This document shows positions 4,020 through 51,885 of a DNA stretch of 64,000 bases, one piece after another. This DNA is from Scilla litardierei (taxonomy: Eukaryota > Streptophyta > Magnoliopsida > Asparagales > Asparagaceae). The notes below the pieces were generated by a model. It saw only the letters and a list, made by a program, of their open reading frames with translations. It did not search any database and was not told the DNA's origin. The DNA is taken from NCBI GenBank assembly GCA_030789695.1, contig CM061134.1, positions 60,023,334 through 60,087,333 on the forward strand, written 5' to 3'. Made by a program: the position numbers and the translations under genes. Numbering within the stretch: position 1 is the first letter of the stretch; each line of letters opens with the position of its first letter.

Positions 4020-4560
4020 GCACATTAGCCGGTGTAAGAAGGGGCACCGACCGATTAGATGACGATCCAGTCGGTCGGAAAACCTTCTTGAACCGACTAG
4101 TGGGCTTTGTTAAATGTTCAGGAGTTATTGTTTATCGTTAGTCGGTCTAAGAACATTGGTCGACCGACTAGGTTGCAAACTAGTCGGTCAGCAATCGTTC
4201 TTTAACCGACTAGCTCTATGATCATTTTTGACACAAAGTACTATTCATTCTTAGTCAGTCTAAGAACGTTCATCGACCGACTAGATTCAAAACTAGTCGA
4301 TCAGTAGTTGTTCTTTGACCGACTAAATCTAAATCCTATTTTTGTACAGGAGTTACTGTTTGGACTTAGTCGGTCTGCGTTGGTCAACCGACCGACTAGT
4401 TCCCAAACTAGTCGGTCAGTGGTTGCTCTTTGACCGACTAATTCATTACCCAGATTTTTCCCTAATTTCGCTGCTTGGTGTTAGTCGGTCACAGCTAATC
4501 GACCGACCGACTAGTTGCTAAACTAGTCGGTCAGCCAACCTTCTTTGACCGACTAATCAG
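4020..4560 (+). repeat. U3 palindrome array, TAGTCGGTC / GACCGACTA
   Basis: About five units of about 112 bp start near 4027, 4138, 4252, 4365 and 4479. Each contains alternating TTAGTCGGTC, GACCGACTAG, CTAGTCGGTC and GACCGACTA blocks separated by 10-20 bases, so each unit can form two hairpins. The array ends about 40 bp before the TATA box. The same array occurs in the copia-2 LTR. Confidence 0.88.
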
Positions 4561-4598
4561 TGTCGAACCCCTAATTTCTGGGCAGCCGCCAGCACTTC

Positions 4599-4608
4599 CT
4601 ATTTAAAC
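4599..4608 (+). promoter_or_regulatory. LTR TATA box
   Basis: CTATTTAAAC lies just downstream of the palindrome array and is followed by a TTC repeat and a C/T-rich leader, as expected for the U3/R promoter. The minus-strand relatives have CTATATAAAC (11211-11220) and a TATTTAAAC-type box (near 31950). Confidence 0.65.
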
Positions 4609-9325: not shown

Positions 9326-9979
9326 TGTCACGCCCTGCTTCCCGAAAATGTGGAGGCGAGACGTGAGTAGGTCCGCTCAGACTTGAAGCCGTGAAGCCCC
9401 AAGTCCGATAAGCGTCAAAAGAAACTTCAAATGGCAAGTCCTTGCAAATGCGATACGAAACAAAGATAACAATAAGAAAATGAGACAATAAGCAATTTAT
9501 TGAATCCCTGAATATCCATAAATAAATTACAATATCACAGAAAAGCCACCAGGCTAAAAGGAAAGACTAAGGCCCAACATGGCCAACAAGGTGCAACACA
9601 CAAACAAGGGTGCCACGCACCAACAACTAACAGCAAACCTAAACAAGGGAAAGGGGACACCAGCGGTCTCTACGACAGATCACCAGTACCCACGAACTCC
9701 TCGCCCAGCGGAGGCTCAGGCTCAGCGACAGCAACACTACACCCTCAACCACGATCTCTACCTCAGGATCTAACATGTGTCACCCAAAAGAGAAAAGGGG
9801 CACATGTCAGCAAGTCGAAAGACTTGTGCAAGGAAACTGAAAGAAATGTAAACTAGCAACCTAGCAGTTAAAGTATGATGCATGGCGTGGAAAGTATGGT
9901 ATGGAAGTGACAAGTAAAGTAAAGTACAAGTAGCAAGTAACAAGTGGTAGGTGTGACAAGTATTGTCAAGTAACAAGTA

Positions 9980-10140
9980 CAATGGATCGCCCACACACGG
10001 GTGCCCTATTGCCCGCAGGCTGTGTTCAAGTACAAGGGATCACTCACACACAGGCGAGTGCCCTATTGCCCGCAGGTTGTGGTCATGTACAAGGGATCAC
10101 TCAGAGAGTGCCCTATTGCCCGCAGGCTGTGTTGAGCTCG
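9980..10140. repeat. short tandem repeat inside LTR
   Basis: Three units of about 50-60 bp share GTGCCCTATTGCCCGCAGG, separated by GTACAAGGGATCACTC. They are absent at the equivalent place in the LTRs at 3756 and 30165, so this is a local expansion in this copy. Confidence 0.7.
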
Positions 10141-10268
10141 TTTTCTAGAACACAAGCCAGAATTGTAATTGGCCTAGGGTTGTGCCCGCAGAACGGGTGC
10201 CTAGCCGGAACAAATAGTACAAGTATGTAGCGAAGCTACGCAATCACGATGAGTGTTCAAGCATGCAA

Positions 10269-10600
10269 TGACATGAGCAGATATTCGCATACCTTTAATT
10301 GAAATTAAACGTGACAGGCAAAATGCAATGACATGAACATATTCGCGTACCGTTAATTTAAATTAAACATGGCAGTTAAAATGCAATAGCAGTTAAGGAT
10401 GCATGGATGACATGAACAGATATTCGTGTACCGTTAATTGAATTTAAACATGGCAGATAACAATGCATGAATGACAATTAATTCGCGTACCGTTAATTTA
10501 AATTAAACATGGCAGTTAAAATGCAATAGCAGTTAAGGATGCATGGATGACATGAACAGTTAATACGCGTACCGTTAAGGGAAAGTAAACGTGACATACA
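10269..10600. repeat. tandem repeat inside LTR (about 60-80 bp units)
   Basis: Five units start near 10269, 10330, 10409, 10473 and 10549. They are built on GACATGAACA, ATTCGCGTACCGTTAATT, and AAATTAAACATGGCAG. The other LTR copies have only one such unit (compare near 5250 and 31270). Confidence 0.75.
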
Positions 10601-11257
10601 AGCATGATGAAGGTGACGGACCAAGCTTCGTTGTCAAGCTAGGTCAATGGCGTCCAGACGGCTATCCTTTCACCGTCTAGTCTCTTTTACGCTAAAGCAA
10701 GGTAATGGCCTAAGACATGGCCCAAATCAAGAGATGCAAGTTTCACTTGCCTAGCACCGAGGAAGACGATCACGAAGGTTCGTCTCACAAACGCTAATCT
10801 GCGGGGAAGGGAATCGCTGTCATGGAGAAACAATCATCAAACAACATCCATTATTATTAGGGTTTCACAAATCATAATGTGGGGGGTTATGAGAATATTA
10901 AAGGAAGAATACTACCCGATAGCGTAGTGGAAGAACGACGCCGAGCAAGCACGGCAACGGAAGAAACGATCCGGGGAACCTACGGTCCAGATCTGGAATG
11001 GGGAGAAAATCTGGAGAAATGAGGTTTTGGGGATTTTTGGGGGTTTTCTGGTGACCTAGAGGAGGTGTCCGGCCTAAATGGCGAGAGGGAAGCTCCAAGG
11101 GAGGAAGGAATGGCTTGGGATGAAGGAGGAAGGGTTTGGGGATGAAGGGGGATGATTTGGGGAAGGAGGAGGTTCAGGAGAAGAGAGGGAAGAGAAGAAA
11201 ACGATTGGGGGTTTATATAGAAAATCGTGTGGCGGCTAGGGCAAACCTAGGGTTTCT

Positions 11258-11690
11258 GGGTGAATTAGTCGGTCAAAGAAGGGTGGCTGACCAACTAGTT
11301 TGGGAACTAGTCGGTCGGTCGTTCAACTGTAACCGACTAAGAGAAAACAGTAACTCCTGAAGGAAAAATGAACTTTGAATTAGTCGGTCTGTGAAGGCTT
11401 GTCAACCGACTAGTTTGAGAACTAGTCGGTCGGTGAGTGTTCATAGACCGACTAAGAGTAAACAGTAACTCGGCTGGGAAAATGATCAATGAACTAGTCG
11501 GTTGAAGAACAATGGCTGACCGACTAATTTGTAATCTAGTCGGTCGAAAGATGTTCTTAGACCGACTAAAGATAAACAGTAACTCCTGAATTATAATCAA
11601 AGCCCACTAGTCGGTCCATTAAGGATTGCCGACCGACTAGATTGAGATCTAGTCGGTTGGTTCTCCTTCTTGAACCAACTAATGTGCACA
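11258..11690 (-). repeat. U3 palindrome array of the minus-strand Tekay LTR
   Basis: Alternating TTAGTCGGTC / GACCGACTAG blocks correspond to 4020-4560. On the minus strand the array is followed by CTATATAAAC (11211-11220), so the array-then-TATA order is kept. Confidence 0.85.
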
Positions 11691-11964
11691 AAAAGTGTCG
11701 ATTCGAAGCGCGAAGCTTCGGGAAGATTTCTATGGCTTCTAGGATCGATTTATACTCTAAGATATGAGCGATAAGAAGCTCGTCATGAGTGACTCACCTC
11801 AAGCTCGACGATCTAAGGAAGGAAGCTAGAAAGTCACGACGATACGAACGAAATCGAAAGCTACGGAGATGGAAAATCACACGTAAAGAGAAAATCCACC
11901 AAGACTCATATAATACTCATATATAACATCGAAAACCCAAACACATGAAAAACCAGTCGTTACA

Positions 11965-25034: not shown

Positions 25035-25143
25035 ATGGAATCCACCTACAATGGAGTAGGATGCATGCCACCCATCCATGAGGAGCGTGACTACGTCCCG
25101 CCCAGAAATGGGAACAGCCACACCACCGAGGACATGAGCGACT
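25035..25143 (+). pseudogene. Tat-like gag, piece 1 (N-terminus)
   Basis: An open frame beginning at the first in-frame ATG (25035) reads a short N-terminus ending DMSD. It breaks at 25143, where copia-1 is inserted. The frame resumes in phase at 45449 once the insert and one copy of its target duplication are ignored. The GTG at 24990 in the same frame overlaps the PBS region and is not preferred. Confidence 0.7.
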
Positions 25144-26182
25144 TGTTGGATCTGGATCCTAGCCTAGAGGGGGGTGAATAGGCTTATAAAAATATTCTCG
25201 CGCAACCTACGAGAAATCACACGCAGTTAAAATCACAAGTAGAGTTAATAAGAGACAATCACAGAGTACGCACAGATTAACCCTGATTCAGTCACATCAA
25301 CGACCTACGTCCAGCCCCAAGCAAATACTAGTATTAATAAGTTCTTTCTGTATACCTACAATGGGGTGCTAGCTCCAACTTCCCACCTAGACTGTACCAC
25401 ACTCAGCAAAGTGCAGAACTCTATCAACCTAGTAAGTACATATCTTGACTGCACCAACATGTCAAAACCCTCTTGTCTAGCCCCAACCAGACAAGTCCCA
25501 AAATTATCACAAATACTGGTAAAGTTTCTCCTATATAGATCATTACACAAATACACGAATATAAAAGAGTAAAGGGTTTAGAAATGCTCAGTCCGTGTCC
25601 GTGTAGACGTCTCTGTCAATCAGCACGTCGTCAGCTCCAGTCTGACGTAAATGGTGTCTCGATATGGCTCCTGGTTCTCAATCTGTAGCCCTTTGAAGTC
25701 GAGTGCACAAGTAGGTCTGTGCGTAAAGCAATCAAGTTCAAAGCAATAAACAGTTCGGTCTGTGCACACAGCAACCCCTTTAAAAAACCCTTTCCACGTC
25801 AGCAGCCCTATTTTTCATTTTCATGCAAATCTCTCCACGTCGGCACGTCATTATTTAACTTCGAGTTCGCCTGGGATCAACGGCGACTTGCTGAGGAGGT
25901 CTTCGGCAGGGATGACGGCCACGGCGAGGCTTTCGGCGTTACGATGATGATTCGACTACAAGGATCAGGGGCACAGTGACTGTCTCGTCGGCAACGCTCC
26001 TCAGCGACAACACCAAGGAGGACAACGTTCTTCGACAGTGAAAGCATCTCCTTGATGACGCTTCGGAGATCACGACTTCGACTCGTCTTCAACTCATGCC
26101 ATCTACACATGGATGAAGCGGTCGGGTCCTCGTCGACGACAAGAAGGTGGCACGACAGCGAGGTCTTCGAACGAGGACGATC
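25144..26182 (-). repeat. copia-1 3' LTR, outer part
   Basis: Matches 43349-44379 of the other LTR. It ends at the insertion point of copia-2 (target CGATC, 26178-26182). Confidence 0.9.
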
Positions 26183-26866
26183 TGTTGAGTATTGGACTCT
26201 CCACCATGATTTTGATGATGATCAAACACAAATCATTGTGACTAACTCTTGTGTTTGCAGTTAGCTGAAAAGTCACCAATTAGATTCAAGAAGATCAAAA
26301 GTGACTACACGTGTTGATTCAAGTGGAGGACTTGGTAGATCAACACAGGTGAAGCATTGGCTTGAAGAACTCAAAGGCTACCTCAAACCTCACGCCAATG
26401 GCATCAACAAATGAATGGAGATTCAATCCAATGGAGATTCAATACAAAGAGAAGAAAGGAATGGATGAGTCAAAAGCTTCGAAGACCATGACGTTGAAGA
26501 TATTCAAGTCATTCAACTAAAAGACTCAAGTCCATGAAGAATTATGGAGATCGTCGCCAAAGTAATTTGTTCATCTCAAGCGACGTCCCAAGACTTCCTC
26601 AGAACGCGTGATCGTTGTGCCTGGAGCTTTGTTGAAGCTCAAGGAGTATTCATGAAGTCAAGGGATTCGGATTCTCCATGTTGAAGCTTCGAAGACGGTT
26701 CGTCATGTTATTTATATTGTCTTCTAGCTTCGGTTTAGTAGAATGTTAAGCCTTGAGTAGTACTTGCCTAGAAATCTTCATAACTTTCATATCGTATCTC
26801 TAAGATTGCCTTAGAAGCCATTAGAAACTTTCCCGTAGCCTATCGTTTCATTTCACGGCTTCATAT

Positions 26867-27440
26867 GCATCTTAGTTGGTTCAAGAAGAAGAACCAACCG
26901 ACAAGATGACGATCTAATCGGTTGGAAATCCTTCTTGAACCGACTAGATATCCTTGCTTAATTCAGCACATTCACTGTTGGTCAATTAGTCGGTCCAAGA
27001 AGGTTCGCCGACCGACTAGATGACAATTTAGTCGGTTGGAAATCCTTCTCAGACCGACTAGTTATCCTAATCAATTCAAGACCACTTGTTGACCAATTAG
27101 TCGGTCCAAGAAGGTTCACCGACTGACTAAATGATGATCTAGTCGGTTGGTGTCTCTTCTCAGACCGACTAGTTTTCCTTATTAATTCAGCCTTTGCACT
27201 ATTGACCAGTTAGTTGGTTCAAGAAGGATGGTTAATGCATTAAAAGCCAATCTAGTCGGTCCAAGAAGGTTCACTGACCGACTAGTTGTCAATCTAGTCG
27301 GTTGATGATCCTTCTTAGACCGACTAGTTCTTACCCAGATTTCACCATCTTCTCTGTTAACCATCTAGTCGATCCAAGAAGGTTCACTGACCGACTAGTT
27401 GTCAATCTAGTCGGTTGATGATCCTTCTTAGACCGATTAA
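26867..27440 (+). repeat. U3 palindrome array of copia-2 5' LTR, same motif as Tekay LTR
   Basis: TTAGTCGGTCC, GACCGACTAG, CTAGTCGGTTG and AGACCGACTAG blocks recur with a period of about 110 bp, as in 4020-4560 and 31995-32420. The array opens with GCATCTTAGTTGGTTC, found also at the array edge of the solo Tekay LTR (near 32400-32421, complement). Reading frames here (27182-27364, 27331-27594) are repeat by-products. Confidence 0.88.
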
Positions 27441-27506
27441 GCAGCTTCAGAAATAGATCCGTTGGGCATTTAATGCCACGAATTTTGTGACCGTTTTCTC
27501 TCTTCC

Positions 27507-27515
27507 CTATATAAG
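27507..27515 (+). promoter_or_regulatory. LTR TATA box
   Basis: CTATATAAG, about 70 bp downstream of the array, in CTTCCCTATATAAG. The Tekay LTR has CTTCCTATTTAA at the same place. The 3' LTR copy is at 38239-38247. Confidence 0.7.
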
Positions 27516-28343
27516 TTTGTGTGCTTCTAACCAGGGATCCAAGGCTGAAATTAGAGACATTTTCACACCTTTGAGAAGAGCCATTCATTCTCATTTCTAA
27601 GCTCTCTCATCTCACAAGAATCTCTCTCTTACTCTTTGAGCACTAATTTCTCAAGAGAGATTCTCGTTCCTTGTGAGCTTCTCAAGCTAATAGCTTGAAT
27701 CCAAGTCACCATCCTCCCTAGCCATCTATTGCTACTCATCTTGGTGGAGCTAGGGTTTGGTGATCTCATCTTCCTCAAAATCCATTCTTGCCCCATATTG
27801 GTAAGTATTTCTCAAGGCATAGGATTTTGTGGTAAGAAGTTTTATATTTCATTCTTTATACTTCATATTTGTCGTATACTCACGGTGGTGAGAGGATTGG
27901 CTTGATCCCAAGTTGTGGGAGTCAAGATTTCGTTTTACTCTCGGTTTGTGAGAGTGTGCTTAGTCCCAAGTTGTGGGACTAAGGTCTTTGTGTGTTCCCG
28001 AGTTGTGGGATACACGGACATCGATTGTAGGTCGATTGTACTTGTTGGAGGTTTTCCGCAAGTGGGCTAAAGGAAATCTCTAGCGGTTTGCTAGAGTATC
28101 CGGAGGGTATCCAGGTGTTGCTGGAGTAGGGCACCGGTAACAAGTCGGGGAGACTTGGGTGGCACCGAACCAGGGTAGATTGCTTGTTTGCATTGCATTA
28201 TTGCTTGTGTGGTTGTTCATTTATTGTATTCCACATTTGTTGGTTAACTAAGGTTTTATTTGGCGTAAATTCCTTATAATTCTATAAAACACTATTCACC
28301 CCCCTTCTAGTGTTTGTTCCTCATAGCACAGGGTCATTACAAT

Positions 28344-28355
28344 TGGTATCAGAGC
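28344..28355 (+). promoter_or_regulatory. primer binding site of copia-2 (tRNA-iMet)
   Basis: TGGTATCAGAGC, two bases after the LTR end, complementary to the 3' end of plant initiator tRNA-Met and standard for Ty1/copia. Confidence 0.92.
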
Positions 28356-28367
28356 GAGGTTATAGCT

Positions 28368-29747
28368 ATGGCAACCAACAACAACAACACAAGATGCACT
28401 CTTCCACCATATCTCCTCGGGTCCAATTATCAAATTTGGTGTGTGAAGATGAAGGCCTACATTCAATCCATAGATGATGATTATTGGAAGCTTGTGGAGA
28501 AGCCCTTTCCACCTACCACTTCCGTACATGAATGGACAAATGAGCAAAAAGAATTGGTGGGGAAACATCAAGAGGTAATGGATATCTTGCTTGATTATTT
28601 AACTTATGACATTCTTATGCATGTGTCCAAGGCAACAACGGCATATCAAATATGGCACATGCTAGCGGAGCAAGAAGAGTCCACCTCGGAGTGTTCTTCC
28701 TCAAATGATGAAAGAGATTCATTCATAGGCTTGATGGCACGAGAGGACGACTCTAGTGATGAATCAAGCGATTCAAGTGAAAGCGATAGCGACAATGAAG
28801 AGGTAACAACGGATGATCTTAAAATTGAGCTTAAGCAATTATTTGATAAATATCAAAAGCTTATGCATAAATATTGTGATGCTAAGAATAAGATTACTAG
28901 TCTCTCTAACACATCTTCATGTAGCACCTCTAACAATGACACCATTGTTGAGACACTCGCTATTGAGAAAGCAAGTTTGCTTACTCAAAATGGCATGTTG
29001 AGAAATGATGTGGAATCCCTTAAATCTAAACTTGATCGTGTTTCTATTGTGGATAGTAACGATCTTGAGATTGAAAATCTTCAATCTCAAAACACTTGTT
29101 TGGGAATTGAGAATGAGGATCTCAAATCCCAAGTGCACGAGCTCACCACACATGCATCCATCTTGAATGCACACACCTCCTATAGTGAAGAAATTATAGA
29201 TTTAGTGAGGCCATCCTCCGGTGCATCCACGAGTGGTGTCTATAACAACTTGGGTAGTTCTACTACTAAGGAAACCACCACTCCTATTCCTCCCTCCTTT
29301 GGAAAGAAACCCACTTTGGGTGGACATCAAAGGAAGGGACATGCTTTCATGTACACCAATACACGTAGGAATACATCCACTCCTCACATTTCTACTAATG
29401 ATGGTTTTTATGTTCCACACCCACGAGCAAGTGTAAACACTCATTTGAGACACTCTCATGCACGTACTTATGCTCATGCACCTTCACATGCTTATGATCA
29501 CACATCACATCCACATGTGCATGCTTATTCTCATGATCATCCTCATGCATACACACCTCATGTTCATCCACGTATGTATGCTACACCACACCATGGATCA
29601 AATGCTCATCATCATGCTTTTGCACAACACAATGTTCCTCATGCTCTTGCTAGATCTCATGTTCCTAGGCCACATGCACCACGTAGAGATCAACCTTGTG
29701 TACATGCAACCACTAGGAAGAGGATTCCCAAATCATACACTATTTGA
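28368..29747 (+). CDS. copia gag-like protein with a long histidine-rich tail
   Basis: The ATG at 28368 lies 12 bp after the PBS and gives 459 codons. The N-terminal 110 residues (LPPYLLGSNYQIWCVKMKAY, then ...DILLDYLTYDILMHVSKATTAYQIW) match the copia Gag fold (DUF4219/UBN2 type). An acidic Ser/Asp stretch follows (about 120-160), then a coiled-coil-like region (about 165-290). The last 110 or so residues are extremely His-rich, with dozens of HxH or HH pairs. The usual CCHC zinc knuckle is absent. The frame stops with TGA at 29745 in a context (stop-GPKNTSTHA) where related proteins have Trp, so the original frame probably ran on. No pol follows. Confidence 0.85.
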   Translation: MATNNNNTRCTLPPYLLGSNYQIWCVKMKAYIQSIDDDYWKLVEKPFPPTTSVHEWTNEQKELVGKHQEVMDILLDYLTYDILMHVSKATTAYQIWHMLAEQEESTSECSSSNDERDSFIGLMAREDDSSDESSDSSESDSDNEEVTTDDLKIELKQLFDKYQKLMHKYCDAKNKITSLSNTSSCSTSNNDTIVETLAIEKASLLTQNGMLRNDVESLKSKLDRVSIVDSNDLEIENLQSQNTCLGIENEDLKSQVHELTTHASILNAHTSYSEEIIDLVRPSSGASTSGVYNNLGSSTTKETTTPIPPSFGKKPTLGGHQRKGHAFMYTNTRRNTSTPHISTNDGFYVPHPRASVNTHLRHSHARTYAHAPSHAYDHTSHPHVHAYSHDHPHAYTPHVHPRMYATPHHGSNAHHHAFAQHNVPHALARSHVPRPHAPRRDQPCVHATTRKRIPKSYTI

Positions 29748-30164
29748 GGTCCTAAGAACACTAGCACTCATGCTAAGGATATGTATGTGCAATCTTATAT
29801 TCATAATATTATTTTGAATGATGATTATGTTGGGAAATCACGGTCCTCTTGGACTTGGTTTCCGAAGGGTTAGTTTTCATTGACCCTTCATTGCTTGGTA
29901 CCATAAGTTTATATTCATTTTATGGGTACCAAAGCATTTGTGTTAAGAATTGATTATTCTTTTGTTTGCATTTTGGCCTTACATGCTCATGTGTGATTAG
30001 AAACGTAAATTCATATTGAATTTAATTTCCATTGCATGACTATTTGTAAATCATTGTGTTTATGATTTTCATATTTAGAATATTTAATATTTCTTCTTGC
30101 AACACATGCGTTGGCTCATATTCATGTTTTGTTGCATGTGATACATGTCATGCGTTTGGATTAT
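29748..30164 (+). other. copia-2 internal sequence after gag
   Basis: The gag-like frame continues past the TGA for about 40 codons (to KSRSSWTWFPKG near 29868) and then decays into AT-rich sequence. It ends at the solo LTR insertion (target ATTAT, 30160-30164). Confidence 0.6.
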
Positions 30165-32686
30165 TGTCACGCCCCGCTTCCCAAAAATGTGGAGGCGAAG
30201 CGTGAGAAGGTCCGCTCAGACTTGAAGCTGCAAGCTCCAAGCCCGATAAGCGTCAATCAACAATAAATTTGCAGGTCCTTGCAACGCGATACGAAACAAA
30301 GATAATAATAAAGGAAATGAGACAAAAGACAATCTCAGAACATCCATCATATTAAATTCCAACATCACAGAAAAAGCCACCAGGCTTAAAGAGAAAAGAA
30401 TCTAAGGGCCCAAACATGGCCAACAAAAGTACAAAGTACAACAAGGGTGCCACGCACCGACAACTAACAGGAATCCTAAAACAAAAGGAAACAGCGAGAT
30501 CCTAAGAAAGAACACCGGTATCTCAAACTCCTCGTCTAACAACAGGATCGGGCACGAACTCCACGAACTCGTCGCCCTCAACAACAATCTCTGGCTCGAC
30601 AACTAACATGCGACACCCAAAGAGAAAGGGGCACATGTCAGCAAGTCTAAAAAGACTTGGGCAAGGAAACTGAAAGGAAAGTAAACTAGCAGTTCTAAAA
30701 GCATGCATGACATGGCAGTTTTAGTATGAGTGCACAAGTAAGACGTGGTGTAACAATAAGTGCGAGAGAACAATTATCACGGCATGTCAAGAGTAGCCAA
30801 GCTACTAACAGTCTCAATCTTTTCACTAGTCATGTTTTCAAGTTTTATGTAGATGTTTACGCCTTACAGCTGAACTGTTGGACATTCACACTGATTGGCC
30901 GCTTAACAACTACCCCAGAACCCAGAGTTTACGCCTTACCACTGTAGTTGCTGATCAGGCAGACTCCCAGTTGATTGGCCGCTTAACTCTTACCCCACCC
31001 ACATGTAAACGAGCCAGGGTCCCTGTACACGAGCTCAGTAAATGAGCCAGGGTTGCCCCGCACAGGAGCTCGTATTCTAGTTCACGATTCATAAGTATTT
31101 GGCGTAGGGCTACGCCCACGAAAAGTGGGTGCCTAGCCGGAAACAGTGGATCGGGCATTGCCTATCAACCAACACATGGCCCGCTTCTGGAACACGAGCC
31201 AGGAAACACAAGTATTGTAGCGTGTGCTACGAATGCGACATTCAACATGGATGGCATGGCATGTAGTAAGGCGTACAAATAAGGAATTAAACATGGCAGT
31301 TTAATATGCATGAACAACAAGTTAAAAGGGTTGGATCTAGCTTCGTTGTCAAGCTAGATCATTTGAGGTGACAGATCTAGTTCCGTTGTCAAACTAGATC
31401 AAATAGGCGTCTAGGCGGCTATCATTTCACCGTCTAGTCTCTTTTACGCTACAACAAGTAAATGGCCTAAAACATGTCCTAAACCCTAAGTGGCAAGTTT
31501 CACTTGCCTCACGCCAAGGAAGACGATCAACGAGGCACGCCACGAAATGTTATCTACGGAGATGAAATCGCTGCCACGGCAAAACAACATTAGAACAACA
31601 TCCAACCTAGTTTATTATTAGGGTTTCAATAAAATCACAAGGAGAGTTATGAGAAAACCAAAGGATCGAACCCTACCATATAGAAGCAGAAGATCGATGC
31701 CGAGCAAGCACGGCAACGGAAGAAAGATCCGGAGATCCACGGTTCAGATCTGGAAATGGGGAGAAATCTGGAGAAATGGGGTTTTGGGGATTTTTGAGGG
31801 TTTTCCGGCGACCTAGAGATGGTGGCCGGCCAAAATGGAGAGGGGGAGAGGCTCTTGATGAAGGAGGAGGGCTAGGGTTAGATGGATGATAATTTGGGGA
31901 AGAAGGAGGCTCAGGAGAAATGAATGAAGAAAGAAAACGTTGGGGGGGTTTAAATAAGCACAGCCGGCGGCTGCCCAAAAATTAGGGTTTCTGGGGTCAT
32001 TAGTCGGTCAAAGAAGAGTGGCTGACCGACTAGTTTAACAACTAGTCGGTCGGTCGATTAACTGTGACCGACTAACACCAAACAGTGAAAGTAGGGAAAA
32101 ATCTGGGTAATGAATTAGTCGGTCTGTGAAGGCCCGTCGACAGACTAGTTTGGAATCTAGTCGGTCGGTGAGTGTTCATGAACCGACTAACGAGGAACAG
32201 TAGCTTAGGTAAAATTAATCAAAGGAACTAGTCGGTCTGAGAGCAAGTTCTGACCGACTAGTTTCACATCTAGTCGGTCGGTGGTTATTCTTAGACCGAC
32301 TAAGAGTAAACAGTAACTCCTGTACAGTGGATTTAAAGAACTAGTCGGTTTGAGAAGAGTTCCTGACCGACTAGATTGAATTCTAGTCGGTTGGTCCGCC
32401 TTCTCGAACCAACTAAGATGCACTAAAAGTGCCGATTTGAATCGCGGAGCTTCGGGAAGATTCCTATGGCTTCTAAGATCACTTTAACTCTAAAATATGA
32501 GCGATTTGAAGCTCGTCACGAATGACTTACTCCAAACCCAACGATCGAAGGAAGAAGCTAAGAAATTACAACGAAACGAATGAAAACGAAAGCCACGGAG
32601 ACGGAAAAATCACATCCAAGGAGAAAATCCACCAAGCATATATTTTTAATATAGATAATCCAATCACATGAAAACCAGTCGTTACA
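30165..32686 (-). mobile_element. solo LTR of the Tekay-like family (2522 bp)
   Basis: On the plus strand it runs TGTCACGCCCCGC ... CCAGTCGTTACA and is flanked by a perfect 5-bp duplication ATTAT (30160-30164 and 32687-32691). No internal sequence is attached, so it is a solo LTR left by recombination between two LTRs. It contains the palindrome array (31995-32420) and, on the minus strand, the downstream TATA-like box near 31950. Confidence 0.93.
31995..32420 (-). repeat. U3 palindrome array of the solo Tekay LTR
   Basis: Blocks of TTAGTCGGTC / GACCGACTAG type, homologous to 4020-4560. The distal flank (32457-32476) reads TTAGAAGCCATAGGAATCTT on the minus strand, close to TTAGAAGCCATTAGAAACTT at 26811-26830 of the copia-2 LTR. 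Confidence 0.85.
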
Positions 32687-32691
32687 ATTAT

Positions 32692-35600
32692 AATATATAT
32701 ATATACTTATTTTTGGTATAATTGGTATATGCATGTATTTGGTTAAATATTTATCTTGTAACATGATTACATGTTTCATTAATATTGTGTATGATTACAC
32801 TAAGATATGGGTTATATTAATTTGAATTTAGTTTGTTAAACTTGTTGACTAACCCATAGGATCCAAAAAGGTTTTTGGATACCAAAATTATGTTTTCTAG
32901 GTTCAATCCACATTGGGATACCAACCCTACCAACTCCTTAATTTGCAAAGATTTTCATTCAAATGGAGTAGTTGGTGCTTAAGTGATGCACCAAAGTAGG
33001 GGGAGCTTAATGTTGTAAGTATATTCTTACATTTGGTTTCCATGTGTGTTGGATGCATGTAGATGTCACTTTGTGTTTGAGACTATCTCATGCATATTCT
33101 ATGTTTGCATATTGTGTGCCTCGTATGTCATTCATGTCTATGTGTTTCACGTGTGTCAAATTCTTGACTAATGTGTATTGTGTATTCATAATCCTTACTC
33201 ATATGTTTATTCGAGGATTATTTATAACATATGGCTTAAATATTTTCATGTTAGAACTAATGCTCATTTGCAAGTTTCACACACTGGACACGCTTATATT
33301 TATGTTCCACTTCACAAGCGTGCATCCCAACTTCCTACTCATGCATCTACAACCTCTTCTTAAGAATCCCAAATCACTATCTTTTGGATTCCTAAGATTG
33401 TTTCTAGGCATGGTATGAACACACATATAGAATCGTATATTAGGAATGACATATTCTCTTGCGACTCATATTGCGTTTCATTGCTTGGGTACCATGCTTG
33501 TATGATTATCTTTTTGTACCCATATATGTATGTGAGTTCTTCCTCTACTCCCAAGTTTGCTTAGTTTGTATGATTTTGAGGGAGTATGACATGTTTGATT
33601 GCTATCAGGACATTACATTTGGTATCAGATTAGTTGAGTTCGTCCACTACCCCCAACATCATTATATGCCATTACATTTCTCTCATATTATGTTGTGCAT
33701 ATAGATTAGTTGATTTCTCTAACCCTTGGTGATTTTCTATCTTGTTGATATGCCAAAGGAAAGAGAAATTTGGTTTTGAAAATTAATACTTTATGCTTTT
33801 CATGCACACTCTTTGTGGTATTACTTTTCATGCCTTCCTTCAATATGTGTTGTGTTGTGAATGTTTATTTTGTGCACATATGCATATTGAACGAGGAATC
33901 TTTCTAGCACACACTATTGTATTAGATATGTGTATTCATAATGATGTTGCTTGACTAAATCATATGCATAGGAATTATTAGTCTAGGTGTTTCTAATTTC
34001 TAATGATTGAGAATTGTTAATTCCTTATATGTATGATTTTCGTGATTATAATAACTCCTATTAATGCATGTCATGCATTTCTATTGATGAGTGTTATTTA
34101 CAATTGGTAAATGTTTGGTTATTGGACTACTTGATTTTGTTCCTTAACCTATTGGATCCAAAAAAATTTTGGATACCACCAATTGTTGTATTGTCAGATT
34201 GTTGTGCAAGATCCCTACTCTTCACACTCCTTGATTTACAAATGATGGATCAATTCAAAGGAAAGGATGGTGCATTGGAGATGCACACATATAGGGAAAG
34301 CTAAATGGTTGTAAGTATGTGTTTTGCACAATTGGTATTTTAATATATTGGTTTTGACTACCATATTTACAATTGGTATTTTAATATATTGAATTTGTGT
34401 AATATAGCATACTTCTTCATTAGCTCATTCTTGTCACACCCTCATGAAGATTGTTTGTTTATGTGACTACCATGTTCATGTATGTCTTGTATGTCTTATT
34501 ACGACTCATGTATCATGGTAGCTATAATATTCATATAATGATTTGGTTAGTTGTTTATTGATGTTCATATCTTTGGAACACGTTGTCATCACACATCGCA
34601 TTCCTCACATGCATGCTTCTGTGTGAAGATTGTTATATGTTCTGGATATGATAACTGATGTGTATGACATGCTTGCTTGTTTATTAGACTGTATTAAGTA
34701 TATTGATCTTAATCTTCATTGAAATTTTTTCAATTCCTTCATTTAAGATTCATTTCTTACTGGCATGCTATACTTCATCATGTCATACATAATTCATGCT
34801 ATGTATAAGATTAATGATTTAGGATCTTTATGCGTATTTGTTCATTGTATCACCACACATCTCATACTTTTCTTATGGTTTGTATGATTATCTTTATGAG
34901 ATGTATTGATATGATTTGCGGTGATCAAAGTATGTTACTTGTCTTTTTTTTAATTACTTCATGACTGATGTTTAGCTATATAGTTATTCAAGAGATCTTT
35001 CATGCCTATAGCTAAATCTTTCATGTAGGATATTTTCGCAAGTGACATAACATTCATTCATATTAGTTAGTGATCTTCAAGCTGTATTTCTCACTATGTC
35101 ATCTCTCATCTCATGCTCATATTTTATGCTATTTTTATGAGATGTTAGAGATAACTTGTGCTTTACACGATCACATAAGCTTTATATTGTGTTTGATGAT
35201 ATGTATATTTTGTCATAGATATTCTTCCATGAATATATCTTGATGCACTATGACTTCTTTGATGCTACCTCTGATTATATTGTGCTTACTCAAGATTTTA
35301 TTCTATTCGCACAATTGGTATGCATGCATGCAATGTTCATGATAAACTTTATTCGTTTATATCCTACCTTGTGACTTTGAACGTAGACTATCTTCATGCC
35401 TTTGCTCAAAAGATGCTTTGTTACATTATGCTTCATGGTGAATTCTTTGTGATAATTGAGCTAGGATGAAATCATGTCTCTATTTGTTCACTTGGTTTCC
35501 TTCTCAAGTGATATCATGGTCTTGACATTAAATTGCCATGCTTTGCATACTCTGTTAGACTACAATTGGTATCATCTCTACATATCATATTTACATTTGG

Positions 35601-36900
35601 TATCATATTTACAATTGTTAGACTATTGATTTTGGATATCATCTTTACATGCTCATGGCATTCCATGCTTATCTTTGACTCATTATGTGAGTATCTATTC
35701 TGGAATGCATGCTAGTACTATGGTTCTTTTGAACATTGTGTCATTTAGTATCCTAGTGTACTAGAATTGTGTATGCCATATGTTTTATAAGTTACTATCT
35801 CTATTTTGGCATAACACTTTTGTATGATATAGATATTTGTGTATGCCCACATTGCACACTTCACTTAGATTCGATATGTTTACAATTGGTATCACATGCC
35901 ATTATACTTAATTTGTGTTATTATTTCATAACATAACTGTGTACACATGGCTAAGAATTTCCATAGTCATGATTGTTGCATTTTTTATGTTTGACTTAGA
36001 CCTCAGTTTATTGATATTATTTATTGATCTATGTCAATGTGATGATTTTGATTCCACCATAATGTATTTAATCATGTTCATGTCATTTTTCTTGCCAAGT
36101 ATACTATTGGTATCACAAGACAGTCTATCACATTATGCTTCATGTTATAAATTTTGTGATAATTGAGTTTGTTTGGGTATTTGACACTATTTGATCACTT
36201 TTTTTCCTTTCACAAGTGATGTCATGATTTTTTGCATTGTCACTTTTCTAACACTGCTCACACTACTCTTTACAATTAGTATCTATTGTAATTTTTTATC
36301 ACATATGCTTATTGCTTATCTTTTTGTGATAATTGAGGGTGATTGAGTTTTTGTTGGACATGTGCTCTTGCATTTGATATCTTTATTTCGATATCTAGTT
36401 TTCAATTGGTAACTTTACATTAGAGAACTTTACAATTGATATACCTTTATGTTTTCCACTCTATTGTTGCATTTGGTGTTTCTATACCCCCATATCTTTT
36501 TTGTTGATGACAAAGGGGGAGAGAAATAAACAAGATATGCTTATTAAATGTTGAGTGTTAAACAATAACTTGAATCATATAGACTTTATGTTTGATCGTT
36601 CATGTATATGATTCAGGGGGAGCATTGGTGATTACCTTGGTTTATATAGATTACATTATATATATGTTGGTAATCATGCTCATGTTTATGATGTGTATCA
36701 CCTACATGATTTGTATTGTGTATGCATATTATTTCTGGTCATTCATGCGATATATACACAACCTCATGTGATACACACACTATTAACTGCTGAATGATGC
36801 AATTGATTATTGATATTAACTTGATTGTCATCATTGCAGTGGGAGTAAGTATATTTAATGCACAATTATTTGTTTTGTTTATATTTGGTTTGTCATCATC
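32692..36900 (+). other. copia-2 internal region, non-coding
   Basis: 4.2 kb of T-rich sequence without a supported gene. There is a decayed second copy of a gag C-terminal segment (33230-33470, including IPKIVSRHGMN). A degenerate internal duplication links 32865-33015 and 34140-34315. At least ten dispersed copies of (T)ACAATTGGTATCA-like sequence resemble the LTR/PBS junction. Confidence 0.6.
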
Positions 36901-36914
36901 AAAACGGGGGAGAA
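36901..36914 (+). promoter_or_regulatory. polypurine tract of copia-2
   Basis: AAAACGGGGGAGAA directly before the TGTTGAG start of the 3' LTR. Confidence 0.85.
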
Positions 36915-39072
36915 TGTTGAGTATTGGACTCTCCACCTTGATTTTGATGATGATCAAACACAAATCATTGTGACTAACTCTTGTGTTTGCAGTTAGCTGA
37001 AAAGTCACCAATTAGATTCAAGAATATCAAAAGTGACTACACGTATTGATTCAAGTGGAGGACTTGGTAGATCAACACATGTGAAGCATTGGCTTGAAGA
37101 ACTCAAAGGCTACATCAAACCTCACGCCAATGGCATCAACAAATGAATGGAGATTCAATCCAATGGAGATTCAATCCAAAGAGAAGAAAGGAATGGATGA
37201 GTCAAAAGCTTCAAAGACCATGACGTTGAAGATATTCAAGTCATTCAACTAAAAGACTCAAGTCCATGAAGAATTATGGAGATCGTCGCCAAAGTAATTT
37301 GTTCATCTCAAGCGACGTCCCAAGACTTCCTCAGAACGCGTGATCGTTGTGCCTGGAGCTTTGCTGAAGCTCAAGGAGTATTCATGAAGTCAAGGGATTC
37401 GGATTCTCCATGTTGAAGCTTCGAAGACGGTTCGTCATGTTATTTATATTGTCTTCTACCTTTGGTTTAGTAGAATGTTAAGCCTTGAGTAGTACTTGCC
37501 TAGAAATCTTCATAACTTTCATATCGTATCTCTATGATTGCCTTAGAAGCCATTAGAAACTTTCCCGTAGCCTATCGTTTCATTTCACGGCTTCATATGC
37601 ATCTTAGTTGGTTCAAGAAGAAGAACCAACCGACTAGATGATGATCTAATCGGTTGGAAATCCTTCTTGAACCGACTAGATATCCTTGCTTAATTCAGCC
37701 GATTCACTGTTGGTCAATTAGTCGGTCCAAGAAGGTTCACCGACCGACTAGATGATGATTTAGTCGGTTGGAAATCCTTCTCAGACCGACTAGTTATCCT
37801 AATCAATTCAAAACCACTTGTTGACCAATTAGTCGGTCCAAGAAGGTTCACCGACCGACTAAATGATGATCTAGTCAGTTGGTGTCTCTTCTCAGACCGA
37901 CTAGTTTTCCTTGTTAATTCAGCCTTTGCACTGTTGACCAGTTAGTTGGTTCAAGAAGGATGGTTAATGCATTAAAAGCCAATCTAGTCGGTCCAAGAAG
38001 GTTCACTGACCGACTAGTTGTCAATCTAGTCGGTTGATGATCCTTCTTAGACCGACTAGTTCTTACCCAGATTTCACCATCTTCTCTGTTAACCATCTAG
38101 TCGGTCCAAGAAGGTTCACTGACCGACTAGTTGTCAATCTAGTCGGTTGATGATCCTTCTTAGACCGATTAAGCAGCTTCAGAAATAGATCCGTTGGGCA
38201 TTTAATGCCACGAATTTTGTGACCGTTTTCTCTCTTCCCTATATAAGTTTGTGTGCTTCTAACCAGGGATCCAAGGCTGAAATTAGAGACATTTTCACAC
38301 CTTTGAGAAGAGCCATTCATTCTCATTTCTAAGCTCTCTCATCTCACAAGAATCTCTCTCTTACTCTTTGAGCACTAATTTCTCAAGAGAGATTCTCGTT
38401 CCTTGTGAGCTTCTCAAGCTAATAGCTTGAATCCAAGTCACCATCCTCCCTAGCCATCTATTGCTGCTCATCTTGGTGGAGCTAGGGTTTGGTGATCTCA
38501 TCTTCCTCAAAATCCATTCTTGCCCCATATAGGTAAGTATTTCTCAAGGCATAGGATTTTGTGGTAAGAGTTTTATATTTCATTCTTTATACTTCATATT
38601 TGTTGTATACTCACGGTGGTGAGAGGATTGGCTTGATCCCAAGTTGTGGGAGTCAAGATTTCGTTTTACTCTCGGTTTGTGAGAGTGTGCTTAGTCCCAA
38701 GTTGTGGGACTAAGGTCTTTGCGTGTTTTCGGGTTGTGGGATACACGTACATTGATTGTAGGTCGATTGCACTTGTTGAATGTTTTCCGCAAGTGGGGTA
38801 AAGGAAATCTCTAGCGGTTTGCTAGAGTATCCGGAGGGTATCCGGGTGTTGCTGGAGTAAGGCACCGGTAACAAGTCGGGGAGACTTGGGTGGCACCGAA
38901 CCAGGGTAGATTGCTTGTTTGCATTGCATTATTGCTTGTGTGGTTGTTCATTTATTGTATTCCACATTTGTTGGTTAACTAGGGTTTTATTTGGCGTAAA
39001 TTCCTTATAATTCTATAAAAAACTATTCACCCCCCCTCTAGTGTTTGTTCCTCATAGCACAGGGTCACTACA
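36915..39072 (+). repeat. copia-2 3' LTR (2158 bp)
   Basis: Differs from the 5' LTR by scattered substitutions and small indels. Palindrome array at about 37606-38170, TATA box at 38239-38247. Ends CACTACA, followed by the target duplication CGATC. Confidence 0.92.
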
Positions 39073-39077
39073 CGATC

Positions 39078-40146
39078 TACGTTCAGCAATGAAGGGCACG
39101 ACAGCTTCAGCAGTGGCAGGGTTTCGACTTCTGTCTGACGGTAGCTCGACAGCGGCGTTGTTGCAGGCTTTGAATTCTCCTCTTTACGGCTGCAGCTCCT
39201 CTCCTCAAAGAATCACACGGCAGCAATGTTGTCAACCCTCGACAGCGAGAGTAAGACTCCATGTTCACAGCTCATCAACGGGCTTGCAACGGCAAAGGCA
39301 GGCTCTCGTTGGCGAAGACAAAGACACAGATGGCAATGTGCTGGACATAGGGTTTAGGGTTGGAAGGAGTTGAGTACATGCCTTCTCCAATTTGATGTTG
39401 CCACATGAAAATATAGAACGATATATGGCCGTGGGCTATTCTTTGGTTTACCGCACGATGACGCTAGGGCTTAGGTTGCTTAGGCAATGGGAATATTTTG
39501 TTGGCCGCTGGGGTATAGGAAAAATAGGGTTTGTGGCTTGAGACGCTTACGGCAGGGGAGGGTTGATGCGTGAGATGCTTTTTGCCTTGGTGAAAAAATT
39601 TTGCCGCCTTCCTCCCTTTTTTGTTTATGCCCCTGAAGTTTTTCTCAATTGATGAAGGGGTTTTTATAAGAGGAGAGCTAGGTTTCATGCGGCAAGGAGA
39701 GGCTAGGATGAGGACACCTACTAACTAGGAAATTTGTAATTGATTAGGGATTGGGTTGAATCAACCAACTTGGGATTTGATTTGCAAGTCAAAAAGATTT
39801 GAATTGGATTTTGATTAGGAGTTTGAAAAGGAATTCTGTTTGAACAAATTTCCATAATTGATTTGATCAAATATCAAATTGATTTGAATTGATCCAATCT
39901 CCTTAGTCAATTTGACTTGGTCCACATCTCTTTTCATGACTTGACTAAGTCCACTTTGCTTTGTACACACCACTTTCTTTCTCTCCCAGAGTGCTACATG
40001 ATTAGCAAATACTCCATCTCCTGACTTAGTCAACATCCTCAAGAATTACATTCTCGTTATTCCTAAAAAACACTTAGCACACACGTTAAATAGATCAGTA
40101 CGTTTGTCATCATCAAACCAAAGATCCTATATTGTTGCTTCCAACA
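39078..40146 (-). repeat. copia-1 3' LTR, inner part
   Basis: Continuation of 25144-26182 after the copia-2 insertion; matches 44380-45443. It ends ...CTTCCAACA, followed by ATCTCCCTCTTTTGATG, whose complement is the purine-rich polypurine tract (40147-40162) of this minus-strand element. Confidence 0.9.
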
Positions 40147-43334: not shown

Positions 43335-43346
43335 GCTCTGATACCA
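43335..43346 (-). promoter_or_regulatory. primer binding site of copia-1 (tRNA-iMet)
   Basis: GCTCTGATACCA on the plus strand (TGGTATCAGAGC on the minus strand), two bases from the LTR border at 43349. Confidence 0.92.
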
Positions 43347-43348
43347 CT

Positions 43349-45443
43349 TGTTGGATCTGGATCCTAGCCTAGAGGATGGGTGAATAGGCTTATAAAAATA
43401 TTCTCGCGTAACCCACGAAAAATCACACGCAGTTAAAATCACAAGCAGAGTAAATAAGAGACAATCACAGAGTACACATAGATTTATCCTGGTTCGATCG
43501 CATCAACGACCTACGTCCAGCCCCAAGCAAATACTAGCATTAATAAGTTCCTTCTATACACCTACAACGGGGTCCTAGCTCCAACTCCCTACCTAGACTG
43601 TACCAGACTCAACAAAGTACAGAACCCTATCAACCTAGTAAGTGCGTATCTTGACTTCACCAACACGTCAAGACTCTCTTGTCTAGCCCCAATCAGACAA
43701 GTCCCAAAATAGTCACAAATACAGGTAAAGTTTCCCCTACAGAGATCGTTACACAAATACATGAATAGAAGAGTAAATGGTTTATAAATGCTCAGTTCGT
43801 GTCTGTGTAGACGTCTCTATCAATCAGCATGTCGTCAGCTCCAGTCTGACGCAAACGGTGTCTCGATCTGACTCCTGGTTCTCAATCTGTAGCCCTTTGA
43901 TGCCTAAAGCAATCCAATTCAAAGCAATAAACAGTTCGGTATGTGCGCACAATAACCCCTTCTAAAAACCCTTTCCACGTCAGCAGCCCTATTTTTTCAT
44001 TTTCATGCAAATCTCTCCACGGCAGCATGTCCTTGTTTAACTTCGAGTTCACCTAGGATCAACGGCGACTTTCTCAGGAGCTCTTCGGTATGGATGACGG
44101 CCATGACGAGGCTTTCGACGGCACGATGATGATTCGACTGCGAGGATCAGGGGCACGGCGACTGTCTCATCGGTAACGCTCCTCTACGACAACACCAAGG
44201 AGGACGACGTTCTTCGACGGAGAAAGCAGCTCCTTGACGACGCTTCGGAGATCACGACTTCGACTTGTCTTTAACTCACGACAGCTGCACTTGGATGAAG
44301 CGGTCGGATCCTCGTCGACGGCAAAAAGGTGGCATGGCAAGAAGGTGGCACAGCAGCGAGGTCTTCGAACGAGGATGATTTACATTCAGCAATGAAGGGC
44401 ACGACAGCTTCAGCGGTGACGGGGTTTCGACTTCTCGCTGGCGGCAGCTCGATGACGTTGTTGTTGTGGACTTCGAAGTCTCCTCTTTACGGTAGCAGCT
44501 CCTCTCCTCAAAGAATCACACGACAGCAATGTTGTCAACCCTCTGCAGCGAGAGTAAGACTCAACGTTCACAGCTCATCAACGGGCTTGCAAAGGCGAAG
44601 GCAGGCTCTCGATGGTGAAGACAAAGACACAGATGGCAATGTGCTGGACATAGGGTTTAGGGTTTGAAGGAGTTGAGTACAGGCATTCTCCAATTTGATG
44701 TTGCCGCATGAAAATATAGAACGATATATGGCCGTGGGCTATTCTTTGGTTTGCCGCACGATGATGCTAGGGCTTGGGTTGCTTAGGCAATGGCAATATT
44801 TTGTTAGTTGCTGGGGGTATAGGAAAAATAGGGTTTGTGGCTTGAGAGGCTTATGACAAGGGGAGGGTTGATGCGTGAGATGCTTTTTGCCTCGGTGAAA
44901 AAATTTTGCCGACTTCCTCCCTTTTTTTGTTTATGCCCCTGAAGTTTTTCTCAATTGATGAAGGTTTTTATAAGAGGAAAGGTATGCGACAAGGAGAGGC
45001 TATGATGAGGACACCTACCAACTATGAAATTTGTAATTTACTAGGGATTGGGTTGAATCAACCAACTTGGGATTTGATTTGCAAGTCAAAAAGATTTGAA
45101 TTGGATTTTGATTTGGAGTTTGAAAAGGAATTGGTTTTGAACAAATCTCCATCATTGATTTGATCAAATATCAAATTGATTTGAATTGATCCAATCTCCT
45201 TAGTCAATTTGACTTGGTCCACATCGCTTTTCATGACTTGACTAAGTCCACTTTGCTTTGTGCACACCACTTTCTTTCTCTCCCAGAGTGCTATATGATT
45301 AACAAATACTCCATCTCTTGACTTAGTCAACATTCTCAATAATTACGCTCTCGCCATTCCAGAAAAACACTTAGCACACACGTTAAATAGATCAACACGT
45401 TTGTCATCATCAAACCAAAGATCCTAGATCGTTGCTTCCAACA
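43349..45443 (-). repeat. copia-1 5' LTR (2095 bp)
   Basis: Uninterrupted partner of the split left LTR. It shows the empty copia-2 target near 44371-44381 (GAGGATGATTTACATTCAGC versus the filled site). A CTTATAAAAACC box on the minus strand (near 44965) may be its TATA box. No palindrome array is present. Confidence 0.9.
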
Positions 45444-46139: not shown

Positions 46140-47914
46140 TGATCGGGCTGGAACTAACTCTGAAATGATGTCGTCTAACCGCAAGCGCACAGTATAGTGG
46201 CAAGCGGGTATCGAACACAGGGAAGCGGTGCTATACTACTTATCTACTCCTAGGTTGAGTTAGACTTGCAGGTTTATTGGTGGATGTGAAATATGAATGT
46301 TGTAATGGTGATGGATGTGAAGGTCGTGTCACTCGATATCACAAACGAGGGGTTCCACACAATATAAAAGAATAAAATACAAAAAAGACTAAGGCTTTAG
46401 GACTCGCCACTAGGACTGTCGGATGTCGATGCTAGGCTAGGACTCTTACGTTGCATTGGTTTTATTGGGGGATTGTAGCATCTAGAAAGTGAATTCATGT
46501 GTCTGGGCATCATGAATCTAACGTATCGCATTAACGCCGCTCTCGAGATAGGCGCATACGATACATGCATTAAGGATCTACAAAGTTCTTACCACTCTCG
46601 TGGTTCGAATGCTCTTAGCTCGTACCACTCTCGTGGGTTAGAGCTTCGAGGTATTTTGGTGGCTCTTATTGACGCAATGGCGTTAGCTGTCAATTAATTA
46701 TAGAGTTCATCAGTGGCTCCCCTCAAGGCACGAGCCGGGCATGGTCACGTGCCTCGGTTGAATCCACTAACTCCCTAATTAAATCCGCAGGATACTCCTT
46801 AAGCTAATCGATTCCACCGACTGTGGGCACGATTTCAGTACGATTTGCCCTAGGTATTTTGCTAGATCAACCAAAATACAACCCCATTTATATCCAACAC
46901 ATCATAAAAATCCCATCTTTGCATCTAAATCCTAAGATCCATGGGCGAATCCCTTAGCCCTAGATGGAATTACTCATGCATGATTGCAATAAAAGATTTA
47001 ATAATAGCAAGAGAATTCATTATAGCATGTATAAAAAGATATTCAATAAGAAACCACAAAGAAATAATAATGGAATTAAGAGGACAAAAGTACTTATCTT
47101 GATACAAGGGAGGGGCCTAGGGCATGGCCTAACTCCCAAAAGATCGTCTCCCAAAACTCATTAGAACTCCCTAAAAACTCTCCAAAAGTATACAAAAAGT
47201 CCCCCTAGAAAATGACGGCTCAAAATAATATATATCTCCCTCAAAAACTCGCGTGAAACAACCCAGAAAATACCCCTCCAAATCTTCCCCAAAATCCGGA
47301 CGCATCTTAAAGTTTGGGCCCACGACGACTCGGTCGAGTAGGTGGCTGCTCGGTCGAGTCATCAGAAGTCTGAATCCATCGCCCAAAACATCGCTCTGTC
47401 TGCTCGGACCGAGTAGGGTCTGCTCGGTCCGAGTAGGTAGCTGCTTGGTGGAGTAATAGGCTGCTAGGTCGAGTCGTCAGAAGTTTGGATTCATCGCCCA
47501 AACAACGCAATGCTTGCTCGGACCGAGTATGCAGCTGCTCGGTCAAGCAGCCAACTGCTCGGTCGAGTATGTTGATGTTCAGCCAAATTTCAGCACTGCA
47601 TCACTCTGCTCGGTCGAGTAGTGTGTTGTTCGGTCGAGTAGGGTGCTGAAAATAGATTTCAGCACTATAGCATCACTTAAAGAAATTTTCTAGAGCTCAT
47701 CCAACCTCTGATTGGCGCGTTCTTGGTGATGTTGGAACCGTATTGAAGTCTACTATCTGGTAAAAATATCAAAAAAATACTGAAAAATCCCAGGTGATAG
47801 CAGATTTGAAATAGTGCAAGGCTTTCCAGTTTCCAGCACTTTGGGTCGCTCGATTCCTTCGCCGCATCGTCGCTCGATCGAGCGACCTGGAATCCATGAG
47901 TCATAGTATCATAG
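46140..47914 (-). repeat. E2 3' LTR, outer part
   Basis: Homologous to 60061-61789. It carries a CTCGGTCGAGTA palindrome array (47329-47640) and a TATA-like run (about 47224-47238). It ends at the copia-3 target CATAG (47910-47914). Confidence 0.9.
47329..47640 (-). repeat. CTCGGTCGAGTA array in the E2 3' LTR
   Basis: About a dozen copies of GCTCGGTCGAGTA, GCTCGGACCGAGTA and variants with a spacing of about 20 bp. They are imperfect or perfect palindromes, upstream of the TATA-like region on the minus strand. The counterpart is at 61254-61513, with a different number and order of units. Confidence 0.82.

Positions 47915-51812: not shown

Positions 51813-51868
<56 letters not shown>
51813..51868. 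repeat. (TA)n microsatellite
   Basis: About 28 uninterrupted TA units just left of the MITE. Confidence 0.95.
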
Positions 51869-51871
<3 letters not shown>

Positions 51872-51885
51872 TGTTAATATATAAA

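Follow-up and report, generated by a model that had tools for sequence, protein, structure and literature searches.

The locus: nested copia and gypsy elements

The window analysed here, a 64-kb stretch of the 3.68-Gb Scilla litardierei genome from which our genome-wide counts and sampled stretches were also taken, is a nest of plant LTR retrotransposons (Table 1). Element C is a Sirevirus-like Ty1/copia element whose LTRs carry, in U3, an array of palindromes that is also present in three gypsy LTRs, T1, T2, and T3. A sequence-only reading had set the copia LTR at 26725-27515 and 37460-38247, and the gypsy LTRs at 3880-4608, 11210-11800, and 31950-32500. The complete LTRs are considerably longer, and the span claimed for the copia LTR corresponds approximately to the block described below (26722-27440). 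C sits in the apparent LTR of another copia element (25141-26181 and 39074-40146), whose other LTR is at 43346-45443.

Table 1. Features of the window, with two copia LTRs from other stretches (L016 and L031)
Feature	Position	Strand	Remarks
Gypsy polyprotein ORF	299-2782	+	Protease, RT, RNase H, integrase zinc domain
Gypsy LTR T1	3756-6321	+	3' LTR adjoining gypsy pol ORFs 299-3539
Block in T1	3877-4557	+	Flank 3877-4024; array 4025-4557, 10 palindromes in 5 dimers
Gypsy LTR T2	9326-11964	-	
Block in T2	11265-11832	-	Flank and array, 8 palindromes in 4 dimers
Element C, copia (Sirevirus-like)	26183-39072	+	LTR pair with 5-bp target duplication CGATC
5' LTR of C	26183-28341	+	2.16 kb; 98.0% identity with 3' LTR
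Block flank in C	26722-26871	+	150 bp, collinear with gypsy LTRs; left edge about here
Block array in C (U3)	26872-27440	+	10 palindromes in 5 dimers
TATA box, C LTR	27508-27515	+	67 bp 3' of array; region not common to gypsy
Gag-like ORF, C	28311-29747	+	Copia gag PF14223, E 8e-6, 25.9 bits (slightly below curated cut-off of 27)
Primer binding region, C	28342-28355	+	ATTGGTATCAGAGC, adjoins LTR end; matches Sirevirus form in available text of PMC2829016
Gypsy solo LTR T3	30165-32686	-	Inserted within C; target duplication ATAAT
Block in T3	32000-32566	-	Flank and array, 8 palindromes in 4 dimers
Polypurine tracts, C	36514-36912	+	AGGGGGAG at 36514 and 36615; terminal variant CGGGGGAG at 36905
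3' LTR of C	36915-39072	+	Second block copy about 37454-38172
LTR with another palindromic array	47326-47626, 61251-61499		CTCGGTCGAG; sites often 20 bp apart
LTR pair, copia-type primer site	48206-48398, 55144-55354		GCCTGGGC palindromes, about 11/22-bp pitch
Dense array	63125-63986		Unit about 47-48 bp, holds CTCCCCCAGC; runs near window end
Copia LTR S	L016:3334-5148		Array of ACAGTCGMCTGT
Copia LTR D	L031:6931-7857		Array of ACAGTCGMCTGT

Element C has most of the Sirevirus features that we tested. The junction between its 5' LTR and internal region, CA + ATTGG + TATCAGAGC, has the exact Sirevirus form (28340-28355), and several AGGGGGAG tracts lie in the linker near the 3' LTR, as in Sireviruses, with one further exact copy at 32998. 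A polyC-rich integrase signal, TATTCACCCCCCTTCTAGTG, lies approximately 29 bp ahead of the 3' end of the LTR, with similar signals in the copia LTRs S and E; it was matched to the verbal description of the Sirevirus signal in the available text of Bousios et al. (2010, PMC2829016). The terminal tract is bordered by an inverted repeat (36889-36904 with 36942-36957, 14 of 16 positions matched), the right arm of the Sirevirus-type repeat being expected approximately 28 bp inside the LTR; according to the same text, such a repeat is also present in almost half of classic copia elements. The exception is the AT/TG attachment site that follows the terminal tract in Sireviruses, since C has AA/TG at this position. 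C may be non-autonomous: no recognisable pol was found in the scanned pieces of 28342-36914, and the N-terminal part of its gag has only approximately 25% likeness to the E gag. A search with the gag of C returned zero homologues at E 0.001, and in a gag comparison meant to root the copia families neither the gag of C nor that of E had a match beside D.

T1, T2, and T3 are 2.5-2.6 kb in length. Their carriers, as represented by the T1 ORFs and a gypsy element in another stretch (L023), have the Ty3-type capsid, the reverse transcriptase ahead of the integrase, and the chromodomain of Ty3/gypsy chromoviruses. In the L023 element two array-bearing LTRs surround Ty3_capsid, protease, RVT_1, RNase H, Integrase_H2C2, and Chromo domains; its Chromo match is weak (E 3e-4) and, like that in the T1 tail (E 1e-4), falls below the curated cut-off. 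LTR length and the TGTAAC start fit the Del elements described in the accessible portion of PMC4029996, and the T LTRs probably belong to the Tekay/Del lineage. The copia gag and the gypsy pol ORFs bear out the earlier placement of the carriers in different superfamilies.

A block common to copia and gypsy LTRs

The LTRs of C and T1-T3 have in common a block that comprises a 150-bp flank followed by an array of three to six double palindromes, approximately 570-810 bp in the copies read. The array of C additionally holds one half-decayed palindrome at 27211, the right half of which is lost. The best copia/gypsy alignment between C and the T LTRs has 72% identity over 371 bp (E 2e-44), and C is 65% identical to T1 over 668 bp (E 2e-31). 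As the sequence-only reading had proposed, more than a 10-bp motif is shared: the 88 bp immediately 5' of the array scored z values of 9.1, 8.8, and 9.7 with the three gypsy LTRs, and 0 of 200 dinucleotide shuffles scored as high in each comparison. The array edge GCATCTTAGTTGGTTC that it had singled out is present in both the copia LTR and the gypsy LTR at 32.4 kb, and the upstream flank starting with TTAGAAGCCAT is likewise common to copia and gypsy LTRs.

The block has clear edges. When identity was computed in windows along both LTRs, it dropped to about the shuffled level beyond position -150 and 3' of the array. Between the end of the array and the TATA box, C is no closer to T1, T2, and T3 than shuffles are (z 0.3, 0.7, and -0.3; 200 shuffles), contrary to the claim of similar TATA contexts, and the R-U5 part downstream of TATA gave the same result (z 0.3, -0.9, and 0.5; 60 shuffles). 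On the upstream side, positions 1-601 of the C LTR scored z 3.3, 2.5, and 1.7 against T1-T3 (2, 1, and 3 of 60 shuffles as high), a signal that adjoins the flank (C[530:620], z 5.6 with T2, 2.3 with T1, and 1.0 with T3); the C LTR gave no such signal before position 430. The left edge is sharper in E, an LTR of a second copia family, from stretch L032: its flank (-150 to 0) scored z 9.3, 14.1, and 13.0 against three gypsy LTRs, compared with -1.5, -0.4, and -0.5 for the region from -260 to -150 and 1.0, 1.3, and 0.6 for the post-array region. Because the TATA region, R, and U5 are not common to both superfamilies, the block would be an upstream, enhancer-like segment rather than a complete promoter. 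Thus, of the earlier proposal that a complete promoter/enhancer block had moved, the long homologous block across superfamilies stands, and the TATA box and transcribed part fall away.

The internal order of the array is also shared. In a tree of 18 dimers, in which 1 of 15 inner branches was well supported, the first dimer of C fell with its counterparts in T1-T3 (support 81/87) rather than with the other C dimers. First-to-first identities were 0.82, 0.86, and 0.78 for T1, T2, and T3, the best of all dimer pairs for T1 and T2 and just under one other (0.79) for T3. Furthermore, the last inter-dimer spacer of C is matched in T1 and T3, at a level reached by 3 and 1 of 5000 shuffles, but not in T2. 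Taken together, the flank in shared order, the grouping of first dimers, the last spacer in two of the three gypsy LTRs, and the clear edges support the view that this long block is common to the Ty1/copia and Ty3/gypsy LTRs by descent.

Geometry and conservation of the array

The half-site of the array, TAGTCGGT(C), is arranged in inverted pairs, 24 bp from start to start, with two pairs 42 bp apart. The dimer period claimed previously was confirmed in the LTRs of C and T, where it is 111-115 bp; it is 108-125 bp in E, and 155 bp across the half-lost unit in C. Palindrome spacing is nearly fixed at 24 bp. In five LTRs (two of C, and T1-T3) all 46 palindromes had this spacing when 22-26 bp was allowed, and in twenty sampled 10-kb stretches, with 18-30 bp allowed, 46 palindromes were spaced at 24 bp and one at 20. 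Genome-wide, the perfect 24-bp form TAGTCGGT-N16-ACCGACTA occurs 628,684 times (reversed control, 1) and the same half-sites with N11-15, a spacing of 19-23 bp, occur 1,618 times (control, 154); these counts cover spacings of 19-24 bp only and are inflated by the copying of whole LTR families, so they do not represent independent events.

Between collinear gypsy dimers, 28 of 480 half-site positions were changed versus 141 of 432 spacer positions (Fisher 1e-26), 5.6 times fewer changes in half-sites, a contrast favoured by our choice of half-sites by likeness to the consensus and drawn from LTR pairs that are not independent. No indels were found over the 912 positions compared in these dimers; the R-U5 rate of 0.070 gap openings per substitution leads one to expect approximately 12 across the three gypsy pairs, with single-pair expectations of 3.3 for T2-T3 (P 0.037) and 4.6 for T1-T3 (P 0.010). 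Each expected place in the T1-T3 arrays holds a half-site. In the LTR pair of C, which has drifted since a single insertion, changes number 4 in 200 half-site positions and 4 in 180 spacer positions. Since half-sites change less than spacers between gypsy copies but alike within the LTR pair of C, the constraint acted between active lineages rather than after insertion, and the pattern is as expected for sites selected while the elements were active.

Counted on both strands in five LTRs, the motif ACCGAC has 16-19 occurrences in each array and 0-1 in the remainder of the LTR. ACCGAC is the core of the DRE/CRT element, and AP2/ERF factors are candidate readers only. DREB/CBF proteins were considered for this role and stay no more than candidates; the base following ACCGAC differs from the usual consensus, and literature searches gave no support. 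Sirevirus arrays form a CpG island; in the present array the observed/expected CpG ratio is 0.59-1.19 and the G+C content only 0.40-0.43.

Further carriers and related arrays

E belongs to the same lineage as C (65% identity over 1916 bp of LTR). The array of E consists of six dimers, a copia gag (95 bits) lies downstream of the LTR, and E aligns with T1 at 67% over 700 bp (E-value 1e-86) and with T3 at 69% over 601 bp. A tree of flank and first dimer separates copia from gypsy modules with support of 100/99; it has 11 rows, 2 copia and 9 gypsy with several near-copies, and gives no direction. The last 114 bases yield the same split more weakly (58/89). A single ancient transfer would be the simplest reading of the module tree. 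In the twenty sampled stretches, palindromes were present in five, all in stretches matching gypsy LTRs, and gypsy carriers look far more common than copia carriers. Scans for the palindrome picked up one stretch in viral contigs and two in bacterial/archaeal contigs, which we take to be chance.

The sister copia LTRs S and D carry an array of a different sequence but similar pitch. Its paired ACAGTCGMCTGT pattern occurs genome-wide 6,564 times forward and 6,683 times reverse (control, 0). Centre spacing in intact groups is 22/19-20/22 in S and 22/18-19/22 in D, and 22/20/22, measured CG to CG, in the arrays of C and T. Compared array to array, S scored z 8.8, 4.1, and 2.1 with T1-T3 and 5.5 with C; D scored 2.7, 3.5, and 1.1 with T1-T3 and 1.2 with C. 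These similarities may reflect common descent, or merely a shared core and pitch. S and D are related to each other in the array (z 19), upstream (z 6.2), and in the proximal region (z 5.3). S and C have LTR ends in common, as well as the proximal promoter (z 5.9); the region just upstream of the block resembles S weakly in C (z 3.2) and only at z 1.2 in E. The flanks of C and E have no detectable relation to S and D (z 0.8-2.5), and the flanks of four gypsy LTRs scored z -0.6 to 2.9 against them.

Function and origin of the block

We consider it likely that the block is an upstream enhancer module that has crossed between superfamilies and whose array is read by a host factor. A fixed half-site and spacing, variable filler, and a position upstream of TATA would be most economically read as an array for protein on DNA. 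The copia and gypsy carriers differ in the proteins that they encode, which makes a host factor a likelier reader than an element-encoded one; a host DNA-binding protein would most likely recognise the half-sites and act on the TATA box of each element. Its occurrence in both superfamilies would be explained by copying between them, most simply in a single ancient event, after which the two versions diverged along with their carriers.

A hairpin, of RNA or DNA, might instead be what matters in the array, each 76-bp dimer being one long inverted repeat. Folding of the array RNA is far stronger than that of shuffled sequence (z -19 and -12.5), although inverted repeats fold well by construction. 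Covariation is weak: for the long hairpin, 13 of 500 shuffles were as high in covariation score and 9 of 500 in paired cells, but pairs in which both partners changed are no more frequent than in shuffles (247 of 500), and pairing within palindromes has no covariation beyond sequence conservation (111 of 500). We therefore regard a hairpin role as unlikely. Still less probable is a separate mobile element inserted into both LTRs: the clear edges would suit such an element, but the arrays in the window, in the sampled stretches, and in L032 all lie within LTRs of copia or gypsy carriers. Separate construction of palindromic arrays for the same host factor in each superfamily might be entertained on the grounds that other LTR families of the window hold palindromic arrays of approximately 20-22-bp pitch (47326-47626 and 48206-48398). 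Contradicting this account, copia and gypsy LTRs have a non-repetitive flank of 150 bp, a first dimer, and a last spacer in common and in the same order, and the other palindromic arrays of the window have no match to the block array at E 0.001; we judge it very improbable.

If the enhancer module was copied between superfamilies, the donor was perhaps a Sirevirus-like copia element, which we hold to be somewhat more likely than a gypsy element; a gypsy donor is possible but doubtful, and a third source improbable. C has most of the tested Sirevirus features, Sireviruses carry palindromic arrays of CGG-CCG core in their LTRs according to the available text of PMC2829016, and the geometry of S and D is like that of C and T. 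The comparison in that text covered Sireviruses and other copia elements only and, calling the motif Sirevirus-specific, says nothing on gypsy, which lowers the case for transfer from copia to gypsy and raises the reverse. The reverse account, which we think rather unlikely, holds that a chromovirus LTR gave rise to the array, which then took the place of an earlier palindromic array in the lineage ancestral to C and E. It gains from the agreement of C and S outside the block (in LTR ends, proximal promoter, and weakly upstream) but not in the flank, from the array type common to S and D, and from the seemingly far greater number of gypsy carriers. It suffers from the matching geometry of S and D, since the gypsy array would have replaced a similar one, although the approximately 20-22-bp pitch of other arrays in the window means that equal geometry may be convergent. 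A T-like-ended LTR in L031 (2533-5398) is without such an array, which also speaks against it, but this LTR is too diverged to be a firm outgroup. It is conceivable, though somewhat less likely than not, that a Sirevirus-type array crossed from copia to a gypsy chromovirus and helped the latter to grow into a large part of this genome; both lineages would then rely on a single host factor, by way of the same geometry-locked module.

Relation to known systems

The closest known counterpart is the repeated motif (RM) of Sirevirus LTRs, described in the available text of PMC2829016 as many palindromic LTR copies upstream of TATA with a CGG-CCG core, several being of the form CGGTC..GACCG, as here. 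Such arrays are reported in 12 of 13 motif-bearing Sireviruses, the thirteenth having the motif ACAATCGATTGT. Sirevirus arrays have at least eight palindromic CGG-CCG copies upstream of TATA, and C has 10; they begin 200-400 bp into the LTR, however, and that of C begins 690 bp in. The same text describes the RM in copia Sireviruses, with none in the classic copia elements compared, whereas the present array is also found in Ty3/gypsy LTRs; its RM units are without the 14-bp gap of the C palindromes, and no fixed 24/18/24 spacing appears in it.

Del/Tekay elements, probably the gypsy lineage of T, have, towards the upstream end of the LTR, a plastic 5' CpG island of variable length (Cruz et al. 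2014, PMC4029996); the accessible main text has neither "tandem" nor "palindrom" and draws no link to copia. In the available text on centromeric retrotransposons in grasses (PMC4079200), segments including LTRs are exchanged between lineages, for which template switching or nested insertion is proposed. Those exchanges take place among related elements, within CR gypsy, unlike the block described here, which lies across superfamilies. Among the matches listed in our literature searches, which covered few subscription papers, no title or abstract opening described sharing of U3 across superfamilies. Tnt1 resembles C in having short repeated boxes in a copia U3; such boxes of Tnt1 are not known outside copia, and the present array is larger in size and geometry. 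Tandem U3 repeats of Tnt1 are named in the accessible text of PMC3601003.

The presence of this block in two superfamilies suggests that regulatory sequence can travel independently of the coding part of an element, so that an LTR family cannot be assumed to own its regulation. One host factor could thereby control two large fractions of a genome, and the fixed geometry should make such a factor easy to seek.

Other repeats in the window

The LTR bearing CTCGGTCGAG palindromes is presumably Athila/Tat-like. At 51813-52282, downstream of a (TA)27 run, a 405-bp segment matches its own reverse complement with 89% identity and may represent a foldback element.
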